This document shows positions 6,110-61,400 of a DNA stretch of 64,000 nt, one piece after another. The DNA comes from Amblyomma americanum. Lineage: Eukaryota > Arthropoda > Arachnida > Ixodida > Ixodidae. Made by a program: the position numbers and the translations under genes. The notes below the pieces were generated by a model that was not told the DNA's origin, did not search any database, and was given only the letters and a program-made list of their open reading frames with translations. The stretch covers positions 133,851,967 to 133,915,966 of the forward strand of contig NC_135505.1 of NCBI RefSeq assembly GCF_052857255.1. The letters run 5' to 3'. Numbering within the stretch: position 1 is the first letter of the stretch; each line of letters begins with the position of its first letter.

Positions 6110-6415
6110 TGGATTTGGGGGAAAGTAAATGGCGCAGTATCTGTCTCATATCTTTGGACACTTGAACCGCGCCGTAAGGGAAAGGATATAGGAGGGAGTG
6201 AAAGAAGAAAGGAAGAATAGGTGCCGTAGTGGAGGGCTCCGGAATAATTTCGACCACCTGGGGATCTTTAACGTGCACTGACATCGCACAGCACACGGGC
6301 GCCTTGGCGTTTTTCCTCCATAAGGAGGGCTCTGGAATAATTTCGAAGACCTGGGTATCATTAACGTGCACTGACATCGCACAGCACACGGGAACCTTTT
6401 GCGTTTTGCCTCCAT
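6110..6415 (-). repeat. Ruka-like SINE with an internal partial duplication
   Basis: The minus-strand copy runs from the GGGGGAAAG tail end through the ACACTTGAACCGCGCCGTAA block to the TTAACGTGCACTGACATCGC block. The last 90 bases or so (about 6,229-6,320) are then repeated with divergence at about 6,324-6,415. The tRNA head is absent. Confidence 0.75.
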
Positions 6416-30200: not shown

Positions 30201-30799
30201 TGGTCGTCCCAGCTAGCGTGAGACACAATGGTCACCGCCGACCTTTTATGGTGCTAAAGTTTCCTATTATCACTTTCAAGCTTCTCACTGTAGCGACACT
30301 CGACCCGCACCGTACACTGTGATCTTCCAAAAAGTACGTACGCCTGTCGGCGAAACTGGGAGCCCCGCCCTCTTACAGCATTTTCTCGCCCAAAACTTGC
30401 CTTCTCTTGAACTTTAGTACTTAAAACATCATCCTAAGGCGTCAGCTAGGCAACTATTGTTTAATCAGAAAGGCGGCGAGTCTCGCTTTTGCTTACGGTT
30501 GTACTAGTTATAAAGGGCAGTTCTCAGTGGCGATGGAGGAACCTCTCTAGCACTCTTCCGATGATGAACTCGCATGGCTCATGTTAGCTGCATTCAAAGA
30601 GCGCCGAGAGACTGGTCAGGTGTTTAGGGCATATGAAATGCAGGCTGATCCATGCAATATGTATACATGTATATATGTGTAATTTTTCTTGCGGGTGCAC
30701 AACGTAACTCAACTGCTATAGTTTCGCAATGACTCCGTATTTGATATACTTTCCGGAGCCCTGATCCTAATCTTTTGCCGTTCGCTTCCTACTCTGCAG

Positions 30800-44679: not shown

Positions 44680-44966
44680 ACTTTTCGCGAGATTTCAAAG
44701 GCAACATTACTACAGAAACTAGCGTATTATTTAAGCGCGAGTATGGCGGGGACCTGACGGTGTTAGGTTGAGAAGTGCTGAACCGCGAGTTCGGTGTCCT
44801 CTCGACAGGCGCGGGGAGGTGTGTCGCTTTCACACTGCGGGCACGGCGAATAGCCGTGTCCTGCCTTGTGTTTGTGTTGTCTGACGCTTGCAAGATCATT
44901 TCCTGTGGTAACTTTGATGCGTTAGGCGGCCCGTGCGAGCTCCAAGATGGTCCGTCAACGCGACAG
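44680..44966 (+). promoter_or_regulatory. RALGAPB: RALGAPB promoter region and probable 5' non-coding exon
   Basis: A GC-rich stretch with no TATA box holds TTTCGCGAGA near 44,684, like the TCTCGCGA element of housekeeping promoters, and a YY1-like CCAAGATGG at about 44,942. It ends at an excellent donor, CGACAG|GTAAGG (44,966/44,967). The next acceptor on this strand lies immediately before the RALGAPB start codon at 46,250. A 5' UTR exon spliced just ahead of the ATG is therefore likely. The start site is not determined. Confidence 0.55.
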
Positions 44967-52400: not shown

Positions 52401-55400
52401 ATTATTGACGTTTCGGCTTCCACACGGAAGCCTTGTTCACATGATTCGTTATTGACATTTCGGCTTCCACACGGAAGCCTTGTTCACAATCATGTGAACA
52501 AGGCTTCCATGTGGAAGCTGAAACATCATTAACGAACCTTTCTTCACTGGTCGGCGTCTCTTATTTTTCAAATGTACACTCCCGGCCAGATGGGATTCCG
52601 TCACACGCTCAACTTGGTCATCATATTGGATAATAGAGGGATGGGCAGTCTAGGCAATGGGGTCAGCTCAGAAGTGGCTTAGGAAGAGATGTGCTTGAGT
52701 AATTTCACAAAGGATATGAAACAGGATGGGTAAGGTGATATGCTGGAAGGCTGGTAAAGTGTGCAGAGTTACAAGAGGATGAACCAATTCGTTGAATCAG
52801 GACTTTTGTGGAGGCTAGTTGGTGAATAGCTATATCACGTAAACCACAGCGCAAAAGAATGTAGGCAAGGTGCTGAACTACCTTCTCACCAACTGCCAAC
52901 TTGGTAGTTTAGTGCCTGTCCTGTCTTGTGTGTTCCCTCTTGTCTACGTTCTTTTGTGCCGTGGTTTACGTGATGTAGGATAAATAAATTTTTCTTAGTG
53001 CAATAGCACTACTAGGTTCGTTGTCCGATTTCGGGCACCTGTACGTAGTCCCTGAAGCCTGCTTTGTGGCAGGCAGCCCACCTGCCCACCGGGTTGTCAG
53101 CAACCTGCCAAGTGTACACCATGTCTTTACCCAAAGACCTTTAGGGAGAAGGCCTTCATGGTAAATGCCTTAAGGGTGAAGGCCTTCACGGTAAATTCTG
53201 TTAGGTAGAAAGCCTCTAGGTCAAATGCCTTTACCATGTGAGAACTTTAATTGTCCACCGCAACTAGTGCTACTGCTCGATTTTTCGTGCTTAGCCATGC
53301 TAAACTGTCTTCTTTTTTTGTCAACTGACTGGTCGTGCATTCTCTGACTCATGCAGACGACATGGGCAGCCACATGTGCGAGCGCATCCTGACAGCACTG
53401 TTCGAGGTGTGGCTGCTGGCATGTAGCCGCTGCTTCCCATCGCCGAACTTGTGGAAGACCTTCCGCGAGCTCTGCTGCACCTGGCGGCACCGCGGGGCAC
53501 TTGTTGAGCAGTGGAACCGCATCAACCTCATCCTCACGGCGGCAATGCTGCGCCTCATGTACGGACACCACTACCCGGAGCTCAAACTGGGTGAGTTGGC
53601 ACGTGCACACTTTTGGTTGGCTGCTTCCCAAGGACACAGGATGGCGAGAAAAGAAGATGAAGAAGCACATTGCTGCGTTCATATTTCTCGCTGTGTACAC
53701 TATAGTGTTGGCATGGTGATTTGAACATCCAACTCGTACGTGGGGGAATGCGGGGTGTGATCCCCAGGACTGCCTGCTTCCAGCTGGTTTTCCAGCTCTT
53801 GCAAGCATTCCCTTGGCCTGGTGCTCAGCTTATCTAGAGTGAAACACTTAAAAAAAAGAAAAGCTGTTTGGCCCCATCTTGTATAGATCAAAAATGCATT
53901 ACCATGGCACTGTCTGGCCAAGCCGCCATTGCATCATCAAAAAAAAAAAATCGTCATCATGTTTCCAGTTGTCCTTCATATGAAGCACGCTATAGCTAGT
54001 GGTTTGGTTTTAGTTTTTGTCAGGTTGAATGTCCCAAAACAACTCAGGCTATGAGGAATGCTATAGTGGAGGGCTCCGGATAATTTCGACCACCCGATGT
54101 TCTTTAACGTGCACTGACATCACGCAGTACACAGGTCTCTAGCATTTCACCTCCATTGAAGGACGACCGCCGGAGCTAGTATCGAACCCGCGTCTATCAG
54201 GTCAGCAGCTTACCACCATAACTACTAAGGCACCGTGGCGGCCTTTTGAGGGGTTTGAGTAGGGACCCTTACTTTTTTTTTTCCGGCATCTTAGTTGTTC
54301 ATGTGGAAAAAAAGAGCCCTACTTTGTGGCACACATTCTTTATGTTCATGTATATTTCACATTCTGTCACATCGCAAAGAACTGCAAACTGTCTTAGCAT
54401 TGGCATTGGCATTGGCTGGCTCTGGCCTCGTCATGTAGGACGAAAAGCGTCACTCCTCATGCCAGTGCTGACTGTGAAAGGTGCACACGTCAACAGAATT
54501 CTTTTGCAAATTGGTCTGTCATTTCTGCGAAGTTATATTTACATCTGAGTCATGCAAGGCCGAAAGGCTGATGAAAACACGACAGCCATAGGAACAGCAG
54601 CACAAAGAGGCACTGTCGGTTTTGCCTTGTCTAACTTTTGACATGGTGTGTTCTTGCTATGAATAATTTATTACTGATCTAGTGGATGCAGCAGTCCTGT
54701 CATCATTGTCGTGCTTGGTAGAAGTCTGCTGCTGGGAGAAACTAAACTGCAGTCACATGGTACATTTAGGCATGGTACAGTTGCACAAAGTCTGCTCATC
54801 GCGCTGGGTTTCCCAAAGTGCGTAACACCTTCATTGACGGTGTATCGAAGAAGCGTGCTCCTTACATTCATTCACGTTCAGCTTTTATCGGCTTTCTTCA
54901 TTTGATTATAGCCTAGCTTTTGTGTGATGTGCTTTTCATCACTTAAAATTGCCAGACAGTGTCTTTGAGGCTTAGTTTGAGCTACATGTATTTGATTCGC
55001 ATTTATCCAACCCTTGGTCTTGGTGGCTACTGTTCATGATGATGAAATGCAACAGAAAGGTAAAGAAGAGGTAACGAGTAGCGACTCCTATGCAAATAAA
55101 TTTGAGAGGGTCCAGGAAGCATCTCATGCAGCCTAGATGTCAGCTTTAGGATGTTTTCTTTTTTTTCTTCCAAGTATTCATACTCTCTTCCTGTCTCTTC
55201 TTGCAGTGCTAAAATCTGGTAAGATCCCATCCATCCTACGTAAGTAAGGCAAATGGTCATGTGAGAGGTTTGCAGAATGGTTTGATTGGCTTGGTACCAG
55301 GATTGCTTCATGTGTTGTTCTGTTTTATATTAAGTCTGGGACGTTGTTGTTAACTTCTGCCTTCCGTTACAGCGATACAGTCTCGCAGGGTGAAGTCCCG

Positions 55401-58400
55401 AGTGAATGATGAAGGCAAGTGTTCACAGAAAAGTTAGTCGATTAAGTTAGGTTATTGGGACACCAGGATTGTTTCTTATCAAAAGGTTCGTCTGAAGCCG
55501 TCCAGCAAATTGGGCTGCGACTTGGCTCAAGTGTTGCATTTTTCGGCACCGAAATTACAATTTCGTGGATTTTCTTGCAGAAGAGGAAGTAACAGACCTT
55601 GATAAGGTACTGCCTCGCCGAGCTCAGAAAGAGAAAGGCAAGTCGTAAAAGTTGTAGTTAATATTTGCAGTTAACGCAGTAGTGGTTGAACGCCACCTAT
55701 TACAGCGTGCGTCATGGTCTGTATGTTGGGCTTATAATCTCAGCATAACAGTCACACCCTGCTTTATCTTGCAGCGTTTAAGTCTGGTAAAGGGCTCTAT
55801 GGTGCAGCTCTGATGGAGAAAGGCAAGTAGCTGCGGAAGTAAGTGAGAGAGCTCTATGTGACAGAAGAACGCTGGTGTGTGAAAGAACTGCATGAGATGA
55901 AGGAGTTTTCATAGCAACAGCGTCTCATTGCCTTACCTCCTCTTGCAGTGATGAAATCTGGTAAGGTCCACCTTCCAAATCCACTCACAGAAAGAACGGT
56001 AACTGACCCAGTTGACCACATGGAAAGGTTGCAGAACTACTCAATAATAGATTATCATCTCAGTCTTAAAATTGCGAGTGCGAAATTTTTTCCAATCGCA
56101 TTGGAAGCAGTGCCCTTCATAACTGAAATGTTTCCTGAGATGTCCAATAATGATTAGAACCTTTGCCTCTTTTGCAGCAGGAGGCCCTGGTAAGCTATCG
56201 TTAAGCCCAACTCGCAAGGGCAATAGGTTGTTTGGGAGAGGGTCGTGAGAGAGCTGAGATGAGCATGGTCTTGGAACATGTGGAATGGTTAATGAAAGCC
56301 ATCCAGTATTCATACAGTATTTGTCTTAGCAGAGGTGTTGCTGTCGGATATTGATGAAACAATTTCATTTTTTCGTAGGCTCTAGCCGCAGCGATTGGCC
56401 ACAAAACAGTAGACACGACAGCTGGTCACGTGACTGCCTTGGGCACATGTTCATCGTGCTGCTGCTTGTGTTTTATGCTTGCAAGGCTTTCCATTTAGTG
56501 CCCATGACCATCAACTGTCAGCAAACACCACTTGCCATTGCCTGTGTTCTCACTGCTCGATGTGTGCTATGCACACTGGCCTAGTACCTTCATGGCATTC
56601 ATCGGCCAGCTTCCTTTTAACCCCTGTCTTTTCTGTTCCTGCTCGATGTCCGTGGCATTCAGCTGCTAAGCCCACGGTTGATGGGAGCACAGCCATGATG
56701 GCCACATTTTGACGGAGGTGGAGGTGGCGAATGCAAAAATTTTTGTGTACTATGCAGTGTTACATCCCCCCGTTGGCCCTCAATGCTGAACAGCCACATG
56801 CAAGCAAAAGGCTTAACATGCGCGACCACATCTCCAATGCAGTGCGTCAGACCCTAATACCAATCATTATGCATTAGTTGGAACACTACATGATTCAGAC
56901 AATTTCTTTGGTCCACTTTGGGTTCACATTATTGAAATCAATCTGTTGTTGCGTCCGGCCGCCTTGTATGGAGGGCTGGCTGAAAACACCATTGCGACTC
57001 GTATAGATGTAATTATCTGATGGAACGAGCTTACTGCGATACTTGGATAAAGCTCTTTTTTTTTATATAATCCTGTGAAAAAGTAGTGCAAGCTATGTCA
57101 TTGCTTTACGCACTTCATGCTGATATGTTCAGAAAGCTGTTAAAAATTGTGCTCCTGAAGTTAAGTTGTCGAGACAAAGATTTGAAAAACTCATACACAG
57201 AAAAGTATGATAGCTTCAGAATGACTGCCGTGGTGCCCGTCACAGTTGAAATGTACCCTTGACATTGTCATTGTGGTGAGACACATGTGCCATCCAGCCT
57301 AGCCAAGCCAGGCAAGCAGCTTGCAAAGCACGGTCTTGAAACAGCCTAGCTTGGATCGGTTCCAGGACTGCCGTTTGTGCAGTAGCAATTCCAAATCTGA
57401 CTGATACAGCATCTGCCACTGCTCTGGTGCAACAGTCTGTAATTTGGGATCATGGTTAAAAGCGTGTATCTCTCGCAGCAACAGGGTCCGGTAAGGTACC
57501 ATTCAGCAAACCTAGCAAGGCAGGCGCTTTGGTAGAAACGGCTGCAGAACAATACTGCAGAACAGGTTAGGTTAGCTTAGTTCCCAGAGTGATAAATTTG
57601 CGGTATTAATTCGAAAGCCTGTGATTTGAACATCTGCCATGGTTCAAGAGCTGTGGTTTGTACATTAGGGTAGTGGTTAAAACCTTATCATCTCTTGCAG
57701 TGTAGGGCTCTGGTAAAATTGTATATGGCCCATCCCACCAAAGCAACTATTCTGCCAGAAACACTCGTAGAATGAGACTCAGAAACAGTCTTAAGTTTGC
57801 TTGGTTCCAAAGCCAAGCAGCGCAGCATCTGTTGTGGCTCAGGTTCTGTACTTCGTGATTACGATTAGTACCTCTTTGTTTCGTTGCAGCGATGGGCTCA
57901 GGCAAAGTGGCATACAGCCCACCCCGGCAAGGCAAGTTATTTGCTGGGAATGCTTTAAGAACTAGTTTAGGGTTAGCTTGGTTCCACGTCCTATAAAAGC
58001 ATGATAGCAATTCCACCTTTAACCAGTAGAGCATCTGTAATAGTTCAAATCTGGAATACGATTAATGCCTTGTCATTTATCGCAGTGATGGGCTCCAGTC
58101 GAAGGGCGAACAGCTCACCCCAGCGAGGCAAGTGTTTTGCTGGAAATGCTAGCTGAATAAGATTGTTTGCAGAACAGCCTAGGTTATCGTGGTCACATTG
58201 CTGATATCCTGTACTTGCAACTTCAAAGCTGACGTACAGAACACCTGCCGCGGCTTTGGTGCTCTGTTCTTTACTTCAGGATTATGATTAAAACCTCGCC
58301 ATCTCTTGCAGTGATGGGCACTGGTAAAACGATGTACGGTCCGCCCCGGCAAGGCAAGTGTTTTGCTGGAAGCACTTTCAGAATAAGTATGTGGGAGTCC

Positions 58401-61400
58401 TGGGTTAGCTTTGATCCAGGTCTGATATGCGTAATGATGTGTGTCTGGTAGCAATTCTAAATCTGATCAGGAAAACATCTGTCGTGGCTCAGGTGTTGCT
58501 TTTTTGTTCTTCGGGGTTTACAAATAAAGCCTCGCTGTCTCTTGCAGCGATAGGCTCCTTCGAAGTGGTGTGCAGTCCGGCCCGGCGAGGCAAGTCTTTC
58601 ACTGAGAATGCGTGGTTCCAGGATTGACGTGCTTGTCATAGCAACTCCAAAGCCAGCCAGTGGAACATTTATCATAGCTGAGGTGCTGTGTCCCGTACTT
58701 CAGGATTGCGGTGAAAACGTCTTGTCATCTCTTGCAGTGATGGGCTTCAGTAAAATGCTGGCAAGCTCACCCCAGCAAGGCAAGTGTGTTGCTGCAAATG
58801 CTTGCAGAACAAGATTGCGAGGCATTCTAGGTTAGCTTGGTTCCTGGACTGATACGCATGTGGTAGCTATTCCAAAGCTCACCAGCAGAACTACGGGCAT
58901 TTCTCAGCTACAGTATTCTGTTCTACAGGACAGGAATGCGATTAATACTCTGGTTATGAACTTCATTAATTTATTGCAACAATGGGTTCTAGTAAAATGG
59001 TATGCAGCCCACCCCAGCAAGGCAAGTGTTTTGTTGGAAACGCTTGAAGAACGAGACTGCAGAGCAGTCTAGGTTTTCTTGGTTCCAGGGCGGATTTGTA
59101 TGCTTTAGCCATTCCAACGCTAACCCTACAAAATCTCTCGTTATTCAGGCGGTACTTTGGGATTACAATTAAAAATAGATCGTTTGTTGCAGTGATGGGC
59201 TTCAGTAAGTTGTCATACAGCCCACCGAAGCAAGGCAAGTGCTTTTCTGGAAGGCACAGCCCAAGGATTACTTTGTATACCTAGCACAGCTGAAACTTTG
59301 CATTTTAAAGCCAGGAGCTACAGTTAATCCCTTGCCTTCTCTTGCAGGGATAAACCCTCCTAAGATGTTCAGCTCGACTGAGAAAGCTAAAGGCAAGTGG
59401 TTGCATAAAGGTTTGCAGAGCAGGTTGAAGTAGGATTGTCATTTAACACAGGCTATTGTTCCTTCATTTCAATAACGCGTCATGGTGGATTGCGTCTACG
59501 GCAACCACATTTCGGGGAGAAATGCAAAAATGGCCGTGTACTGGGCAATGTCAGTGCACGTTAGATTGCTTCACGTGATTGCAATTAATAAAGAGCCCCC
59601 CACTACAACATCTCTTATTCCTCGTGTACCTTTGGGATTTGGGGCGTTAAACCCAACATACCTTGTTCCACTTCAGCCAACGGGATGTTAACCGAGGGTG
59701 TGTATTGCTGTATTCACGGGTGGATTTGCCTGTACTGTACTTCAGGGAATAATTCCCTATTTCTATAGGGACAGTTCCCTAAGTGTGGGCTTCCCTTTTC
59801 TCTAAAGTATAAGGGCTGCTGCCTTTCCCCATATGACATTCCCTAAGGAGAGTTACTTTACCTCAGTTTAGGGGATAAAAGCTACTCTTCCCCCGAAATT
59901 AATTCCCCAAGGGGAGTTTTGATCATCCCTGTTTAGGGGATAAGCGCTACTCCCCTATTTGTGTCCCGTATTTGGGGAATACAGGAAAATACTTTAAAGG
60001 AATAATTCTGAATGTACTGGACTAACAGACTTCTTCTCCTGTGTTCTGGCACCGTGCGGCTGCTGTTCGCAGAGGATGAGGCATTGACCATAGCGGGCGA
60101 GCTGAACCCTGAGCAGCTGGCGCAGGCATGGTACCGCTTCCTGCACGTGCTGGGAAATCCTGTGGACCTGTGCCGTCCTGAGGTGGTGAGCCAGACACCA
60201 GGCTTCTACAGCCTGTTGGAGGCCAGCGACTCCATTGTGGACCCGTTCCAGAACCCCTGCCTGGCCGCCCTGCCCCACATATTCCACCGGGCCATGGCAG
60301 GCATCGCCACACTTGTCGACGCCACCCTGGGTGCGCATTGTTTGCTTGCCCAAGTGCACATACATGCGGGATCATAGCTGACTTCATGGCCGACTTCATA
60401 GCGCATTGCTCAAAATAGGTCACAGATGACTTCCTAGCAGAGCTTATGGTAGTTGACAGCTGATTTCATTGCTCGTAATTCAAAAAAGTTCATGGCTTTC
60501 TTTATGGGCCAACACTGGTCTTTCACTAAAGCCAGATGCGATGGCACAGCTGTCGCTGAGGGTGGTAACCGTGGGTGGTGCGGCCCATGGGATTGCATGT
60601 GGATGAAAATTTTTAAAGTAACTTTCTGATTTCAAACTGCACCTATGACAGTGTCCCGTCATTGACAAAAGCCTTACCCATCATGGAACAAAGTGAGAAA
60701 GTATTGAATGCCAATTAAAGCACTTGTGTTTTCAAAACGCCACAATATGTGCAAGGCGGCGTTAGCCCCTGAGTTACCCCCTGGATGGGGATATTGGGCG
60801 AGAGCACAGCGCATGGAAACATATGCAAAGAAAATTCCTAAAAGAATTTTTTCATTTTGCAGGGCCGGAGCCCTTCACTATGGCACCTATTTCTCCCTTT
60901 CTTCTTTCACTCCCTCCTTTATCCGTTCCCTTACGGCGTGGTTCAGGTGTCCAAGGATATATGAGACAGATACTGCACCATTTCCTTTCCCCCAAAACCA
61001 ACCAACCAACCATTTTGCAGTGCACTTATGAAGTTAGTTCTCCATTAGCAGCTGACAAATACTTCTCAGAAGAGCACTGAAATGTACGGAATGTCATTTG
61101 AAAGCCAATGTCTTTTTGAAACGTCTCGATAATTGTATGTTGTGATGCTGGATGTACCCCCCAATAACGCTAGGCGCTTAACCAGCTGGGTGCTTCACCG
61201 AGTCAGACAAGTTCCTCGTGTAGTCTTTGAAGCCATGTGCGTTATATTTTCTCACAAACATAGTCATTCAGACTAGGTAGCCTAGACAGCTCGACATGGA
61301 AGGCAGCTCTCAAACGGCAGGATAAGTGAACCGTGCACTGTAGCAGACGGCAGCGCAGATGATACCACAACTGCCTCTGGGGTACGCACGCACGCCCTAC

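Follow-up and report, generated by a model that had tools for sequence, protein, structure and literature searches.

The window analyzed here is a stretch of 64,000 nucleotides (nt) of the 2.56-Gb genome of the tick Amblyomma americanum (C9:133851967-133915966). The gene in this window is RALGAPB, recognized by homology over the whole protein length, and one of its introns holds the tandem array of exon-like units that is the subject of this analysis. When the ral GTPase-activating protein (GAP) subunit beta isoform X4 of A. americanum (P0001) was placed on the window plus the next 120 kb, 30 exact blocks accounted for 1542 of its 1544 residues, beginning with a block at 44947; the gene runs past the window end. 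This mapping and the matches of two exons to human RalGAP beta (9qwp_B) confirm the host gene named in a first-pass annotation of the same DNA. The array-bearing intron (53591-60072, 6.5 kb) follows an exon ending in ...CTC AAA CTG G/gtgagt (53590) and precedes one starting at ...cag/AG GAT GAG (60073; slashes mark exon boundaries). As that annotation had proposed, the two exons join in frame as LKL-EDEAL: in P0001, 53357-53590 and 60073-60330 are directly joined and all units are skipped. The flanking exons and the units are as follows.

53357..53590 (+): upstream constitutive RALGAPB exon; matches 9qwp_B residues 223-295, maps to P0001 and ends in phase 1 (LKL G/)
55207..55239 (+): unit 1; 12 nt with donor gtaaga, or 33 nt with donor gtaagt
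55373..55414 (+): unit 2; 42 nt, GC donor AAG/gcaagt
55581..55637 (+): unit 3; 57 nt, GC donor
55775..55822 (+): unit 4; 12-nt (gtaaag) or 48-nt (gcaagt) form
55949..55960 (+): unit 5; 12-nt form only (gtaagg)
56178..56189 (+): unit 6; 12-nt form (gtaagc), a second AG giving 9 nt; the 36-nt GC donor CTC/gcaagg is poor
about 57285..57460 (+): probable 3' half of a 17th unit, assigned by alignment; donor decayed to gcaagc; adjoins a ~0.9-kb insertion
57479..57490 (+): unit 7; 12-nt form (gtaagg); 1-nt deletion in the long body, long donor decayed to gcaggc
57701..57712 (+): unit 8; the 12-nt form (gtaaaa) has an in-frame TAG and no long donor remains; probably dead
57890..57931 (+): unit 9; 42 nt, GC donor (CAG/gcaaag at +12)
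58086..58127 (+): unit 10; 42 nt, GC donor
58312..58353 (+): unit 11; 12-nt (gtaaaa) or 42-nt (gcaagt) form
58548..58589 (+): unit 12; 42 nt, GC donor
58738..58779 (+): unit 13; 42 nt, GC donor; weak gtaaaa at +12
58980..59021 (+): unit 14; not spliceable as drawn, with an acceptor mutation to gcaa; intact body and GC donor
59193..59234 (+): unit 15; 42 nt, GC donor; gtaagt at +12; pyrimidine tract weak (8 of 15)
59348..59392 (+): unit 16; 45 nt, GC donor
60073..60330 (+): downstream constitutive RALGAPB exon; matches 9qwp_B residues 301-383 and maps to P0001 (/AG GAT GAG, EDEAL)

The 16 units are homologous to one another and are spaced 155-242 nt from start to start, with one exception of 1301 nt between units 6 and 7 that contains the ~0.9-kb insertion and the adjoining 3' half of the probable 17th unit. 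Fifteen have a YAG acceptor, the exception being unit 14, and the rare GC donor RAG/GCAAGT is kept in 11 of the 16. The bodies that end at this GC donor are 42 nt long in eight units and 45, 48, or 57 nt long in the others, and all 11 are open and divisible by three. A further donor of the gtaag- or gtaaa- type lies at +12 in ten units (1, 4, 5, 6, 7, 8, 11, 13, 14, and 15), a position occupied by gcaaag in unit 9. In unit 1 the longer form ends at a gtaagt donor at 33 nt, and the aligned 42-nt end (gcaaat) would bring in a stop. Units 5 to 8 have no good long donor, and in units 5 and 6 a good donor is left for the 12-nt form alone. Unit-by-unit mapping thus agrees with the first-pass annotation on the number of units, their span (55207..59392), their coordinates, and the lengths of the long forms (33, 42, 45, 48, and 57 nt, all multiples of three, with unit 1 at 12 or 33 nt). 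The long donor of the units is GC rather than GT, the 33-nt form of unit 1 excepted. The annotation's description of every unit as an acceptor, coding body, and donor had to be amended, as it suits most of them but not unit 14 (acceptor), unit 8 (TAG and long donor), or unit 7 (1-nt deletion).

The reading frame set by the flanking exons is open in nearly all bodies. In phase 1 a stop is present in 1 of the 16 bodies, as compared with 12 and 11 of the 16 in the other two frames, in line with the earlier proposal that the units enter and leave in phase 1. Random intron segments of matched lengths gave 9.3 ± 1.9 open bodies as compared with the 15 observed, and 15 or more were reached in 46 of 20,000 draws; all 11 bodies with GC donors are open, and the same was seen in 15 of 20,000 controls. 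These counts are to be read with the knowledge that the analyst set the body lengths by the donors and with some knowledge of the frame, and that the units are related by descent, so that they are not independent trials. The long donor is itself concentrated in the array, as 11 of the 12 RAGGCAAGT sites on both strands of the window are unit long donors (shuffled sequences contained a mean of 1.26 and a maximum of 5 sites). The sole site outside the array is at 30395-30403 (-). We also used an exon detector, designed after the array donors had been seen, that requires a pyrimidine tract, YAG, and a.AG/G[TC][AG]AGT donor within 9-60 nt. In the array it found 11 candidates, of which 9, corresponding to 9 of the 16 units, were in phase and open; in the 184 kb scanned it found 3 further candidates (1 good) on the rest of the plus strand and 7 (2 good) on the minus strand.

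Alignment of units 7-15 showed that the splice sites are the best conserved part of the repeat. Among 237 six-base windows, the highest identities were those of the acceptor TTGCAG (0.90 and 0.93, at both period ends) and the donor AAGGCAAG (0.89-0.93), and the best other intronic window reached 0.81. Identity was 0.82 in the last 7 nt of the acceptor and 0.86 in the donor, as compared with about 0.51-0.71 in the intron. Gap openings were distributed in the same way, with 1 in the 42-nt bodies, none in the preceding 20 nt, and 31 in the 167 nt of intron.

The joint retention of acceptor, donor, frame, and freedom from stops was compared with neutral expectation by simulating nine units along a tree derived from 148 intron columns at the measured gap rate (4000 runs). 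In this model, which takes the consensus as ancestor and a midpoint-rooted tree and leaves alignment errors outside, a mean of 0.2 and a maximum of 3 units stayed fully intact, and none of the 4000 runs reached the 6 of 9 observed. The single criteria were reached more often, in 1 run for the donor (7 of 9), 45 for the frame (7 of 9), and 188 for the acceptor (8 of 9). When branch lengths were multiplied by 0.75, 0.5, 0.35, and 0.25, the joint value was reached in 0, 1, 20, and 159 of 3000 runs, respectively. The frame and simulation results support the first-pass argument that random intronic repeats would not keep their length modulo three.

The remaining units, 1-6 and 16, have spacers without resemblance to each other or to the rest (z 0.44 and 0.54), and positions -8 to +18 around their acceptors still match (z 4.3 and 3.6; 0.8 in a control against 29 other exon starts of RALGAPB). 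Most of this signal is held by the last 8 intron bases, which are 0.84-0.86 identical, as compared with 0.64 to other acceptors; identity over the first 18 exon bases is 0.45-0.46, as compared with 0.24. Judged from these comparisons, a generic splice signal explains only part of the similarity.

The acceptors of the units also resemble in part those of a known class of regulated exons. UGC is present at -5 to -3 in 13 of 16 units, including six of the seven old units, as compared with 8 of 29 other RALGAPB acceptors, and UCUC or CUCU occurs at a median of 1.5 per unit, as compared with 0 in other acceptors; the units are homologous, so tests of these two differences are not independent. In the available text of a study of fly exons that depend on the eMIC domain, these exons are described as having UGC, UCUC, long AG exclusion zones, and CUAAY branch points (PMC8797185), and the available part of another report describes GC donors as enriched in alternatively spliced genes (PMC2490688). 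Because of the UGC and UCUC features and this enrichment of GC donors, we infer that inclusion of the units would be optional and likely regulated, and possibly neuronal.

The array is thus a set of homologous units whose phase is shared and whose acceptors, GC donors, and open frame are conserved above the surrounding intron. We think it likely that most of the 16 units are optional microexons, predicted to add 4 to 19 residues and to lengthen one loop of RalGAP beta. From the sequence features described above, the array is a real one that shows signs of selection for splicing and for an open frame, and it is probably a source of optional loop variants. The history that we infer begins with an ancestral microexon having two donors, GT at 12 nt and GC at about 42 nt, which would then have been duplicated in tandem. 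The GC donors and tiny size of the units would make inclusion optional and probably tissue-regulated. The skip isoform would be the default, and one or more units would be added in some cells, possibly neurons, given the UGC just before the AG.

The predicted position of the added peptide is a loop. In a predicted model of the Rhipicephalus appendiculatus protein P0007, with a mean predicted local distance difference test (pLDDT) score of 65 and of 73 in block 211-220, the junction (L215/E216) is in a loop between helices 184-206 and 219-224. The best fold match of this model is 9qwp_B, with a template modeling (TM) score of 0.65 by query. A Ser/Pro/Gly/Lys-rich peptide would enter this loop, which joins two helices of the N-terminal helical domain, and could bear phosphosites or a binding motif there. 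The unit peptides include AMGSGKVAYSPPRQ, VMKS, and VLKS, and phosphorylation or binding by a peptide-binding domain is our guess from their composition.

Several results weigh against optional microexons in use. In units 7-15 the bodies, at 0.64 identity, are about as diverged as the intron. A comparison of dN/dS between units, proposed as a check in the first-pass annotation, gave no significant excess of synonymous change: the ratio of nonsynonymous to synonymous differences (pN/pS) in units 9-15 is 0.65 (bootstrap 0.41-1.15), the two wrong frames give 0.68 and 0.91, and changes are about equally frequent at the three codon positions (99, 81, and 86). These pN/pS values are as compatible with a tolerant or diversifying linker as with weak constraint. 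Two features of eMIC-dependent exons are lacking, as AG exclusion zones in the units do not exceed those of other acceptors (median 25.5 versus 32) and CUAAY branch sites occur in 0 of 16 units as compared with 6 of 29 other acceptors. A scan of 397 windows for docking and selector pairing was unconvincing after that many tests, with the best three windows 2.1-2.9 standard deviations beyond 30 shuffles each. Units 7 (long form), 8, and 14 and the probable 17th unit are damaged. No insert was present at the junction in 120 listed homologues (the best 120 of 540 matches), and P0001 and seven other tick proteins that were compared all skip every unit. The unit peptides matched nothing in the protein database at an expectation value (E) of 10 or below; this absence is weak evidence, because clustering of the database at 90% identity (P0001 represents 16 sequences and P0002 represents 34) would hide unit-bearing isoforms.

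Much of this would be expected if the array were a relic, a formerly used microexon cluster now drifting, with the skip isoform as sole product. The damaged units, the skipping of every unit in isoform X4, the absence of units from the protein records examined, and a peptide constraint that is not significant all agree with such a history. A relic would not, however, be expected to keep its acceptors and donors while the introns of units 7-15 diverged as far as they have, and the window conservation and the neutral simulation both argue against drift; we regard this explanation as unlikely. The same conservation could be turned to another account, in which the sites are kept as splicing decoys that slow or regulate removal of the intron, with decoy or transient microexons whose peptides matter little. 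This would suit a repeat in which the splice sites are conserved best and amino-acid constraint is not significant, but decoys require neither an open frame nor lengths in threes, and both are kept. Recursive splice sites have a zero-length AG/GT form, which the units do not have, and we ruled them out; decoys as a whole seem to us quite unlikely.

That an ordinary intronic tandem repeat or mobile-element array should look like exons by chance is highly improbable. The array is indeed a tandem repeat, and neighboring intron DNA has repeat-like pieces, but the detector, frame, and conservation tests all oppose a chance likeness. No copy of a unit was found outside the array among the scored candidates of a search of the 2.56-Gb genome (the whole array and one unit as queries, three candidates scored for each). 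Beyond the array units, these candidates included only two short matches, both inside the insertion between units 6 and 7, and a transposon or satellite origin was rejected on this result.

If the units are optional microexons, they differ from each known exon system with which we compared them. The first-pass annotation had likened the array to Dscam-like exon clusters. The likeness stands insofar as homologous exons lie in tandem between constitutive exons. It does not extend to their use: Dscam-like clusters have no product that skips all copies, whereas such a product is annotated for RALGAPB, and double inclusion of RALGAPB units carries no penalty, their lengths being in threes. The related sDscam 5' cassettes of chelicerates consist, in the available text of PMC4835542, of immunoglobulin (Ig)-domain exons with mutually exclusive splicing and alternating promoters. 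Dscam and sDscam exons encode Ig domains of which one is chosen, whereas RALGAPB units are 12-57 nt long, may all be skipped, and have no convincing docking site. Tandem duplicated exon substitution events in ion channels, tropomyosin, and other proteins also involve homologous tandem exons (PMC9741552, available part). Such events generally involve two full exons, or a few, that are chosen singly, in contrast to 16 microexons.

Schistosome micro-exon genes (MEGs) have runs of tiny symmetrical exons, from which alternative splicing makes proteins that differ in a few residues, as the accessible portion of PMC4350168 describes. The RALGAPB array likewise has symmetrical microexons in a run, but most of a MEG coding region is microexons, whereas RALGAPB is made mostly of blocks of 25-97 residues (30 blocks) with one insertion site. 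MEG products are found in secretions and glands, and RALGAPB encodes a large regulator with units that are visibly tandem copies; we take the RALGAPB product to be intracellular. The neuronal microexons dependent on eMIC/SRRM are likewise tiny and in frame and carry, like the RALGAPB units, a UGC close to the acceptor and UCUC within the tract; they differ in the long AG exclusion zones and CUAAY branch sites that the RALGAPB units do not have. Known eMIC microexons are mostly single rather than in arrays. The units are in frame and 12-48 nt long, apart from the 57 nt of unit 3, which exceeds the size limit of at most 51 nt given in the available text of PMC12064062. Because each comparison fails in at least one tested defining feature, we did not class the array as Dscam-type, MEG, or eMIC exons.

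A stronger form of the proposal is that the array acts as a combinatorial microexon keyboard in an intracellular signaling regulator, with Dscam-scale diversity at one loop of the Ral GTPase-activating complex. We consider this possible but doubtful. The computed repertoire would comprise 14 usable units, in five of which a short form (GT donor) is nested in a long one (GT or GC donor), both in frame; addition of a single unit would give 20 forms including the skip form, and any ordered subset would give up to 124,416 loop variants.

To our knowledge, large exon arrays encode either secreted proteins of parasites or entire domains of proteins at the cell surface, and a literature search on RALGAPB and RalGAP splicing and on tandem microexon arrays, judged by titles and abstract starts and with subscription papers mostly uncovered, found no description of this array. 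If the predicted microexons are real and selected for splicing, tandem duplication can build a microexon repertoire (12-57 nt, mostly with GC donors) inside a GAP subunit, ticks would have an unrecognized route to the tuning of Ral signaling, and the 16 sister microexons would be a natural series from which to learn what makes a microexon spliceable. Similar arrays may be overlooked elsewhere, because 12-nt exons and GC-AG introns can escape both annotation and aligners.

Other sequences in and around the array intron were also noted. Parts of the ~0.9-kb insertion (56393-57285) have copies on C1 and C5 that are 69-79% identical. Upstream of unit 1, the same intron has repeat-like sequence at 54064-54200 (GGAGGGCTCCGG..AATTTCGA.CACC..TTAACGTGCACTGACATC), and a tandem pair similar to it is present at 6231-6415. 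Just upstream of the downstream exon, 59735-60000 contains many palindromes of the AGGGGA/TCCCCT type, and its folding beats that of shuffled sequences (z -2.87); this segment may be what is left of a mobile element, or a structure that influences how the array intron is spliced. Farther downstream, P0001 includes two small RALGAPB exons, one of 36 nt (L004:7625-7660, SGYQGSNSEVKR) and one of 81 nt (L005:5495-5575, DDDSLREK...). The 36-nt exon is missing from the seven other tick proteins compared, and RALGAPB of A. americanum may have other small optional exons.

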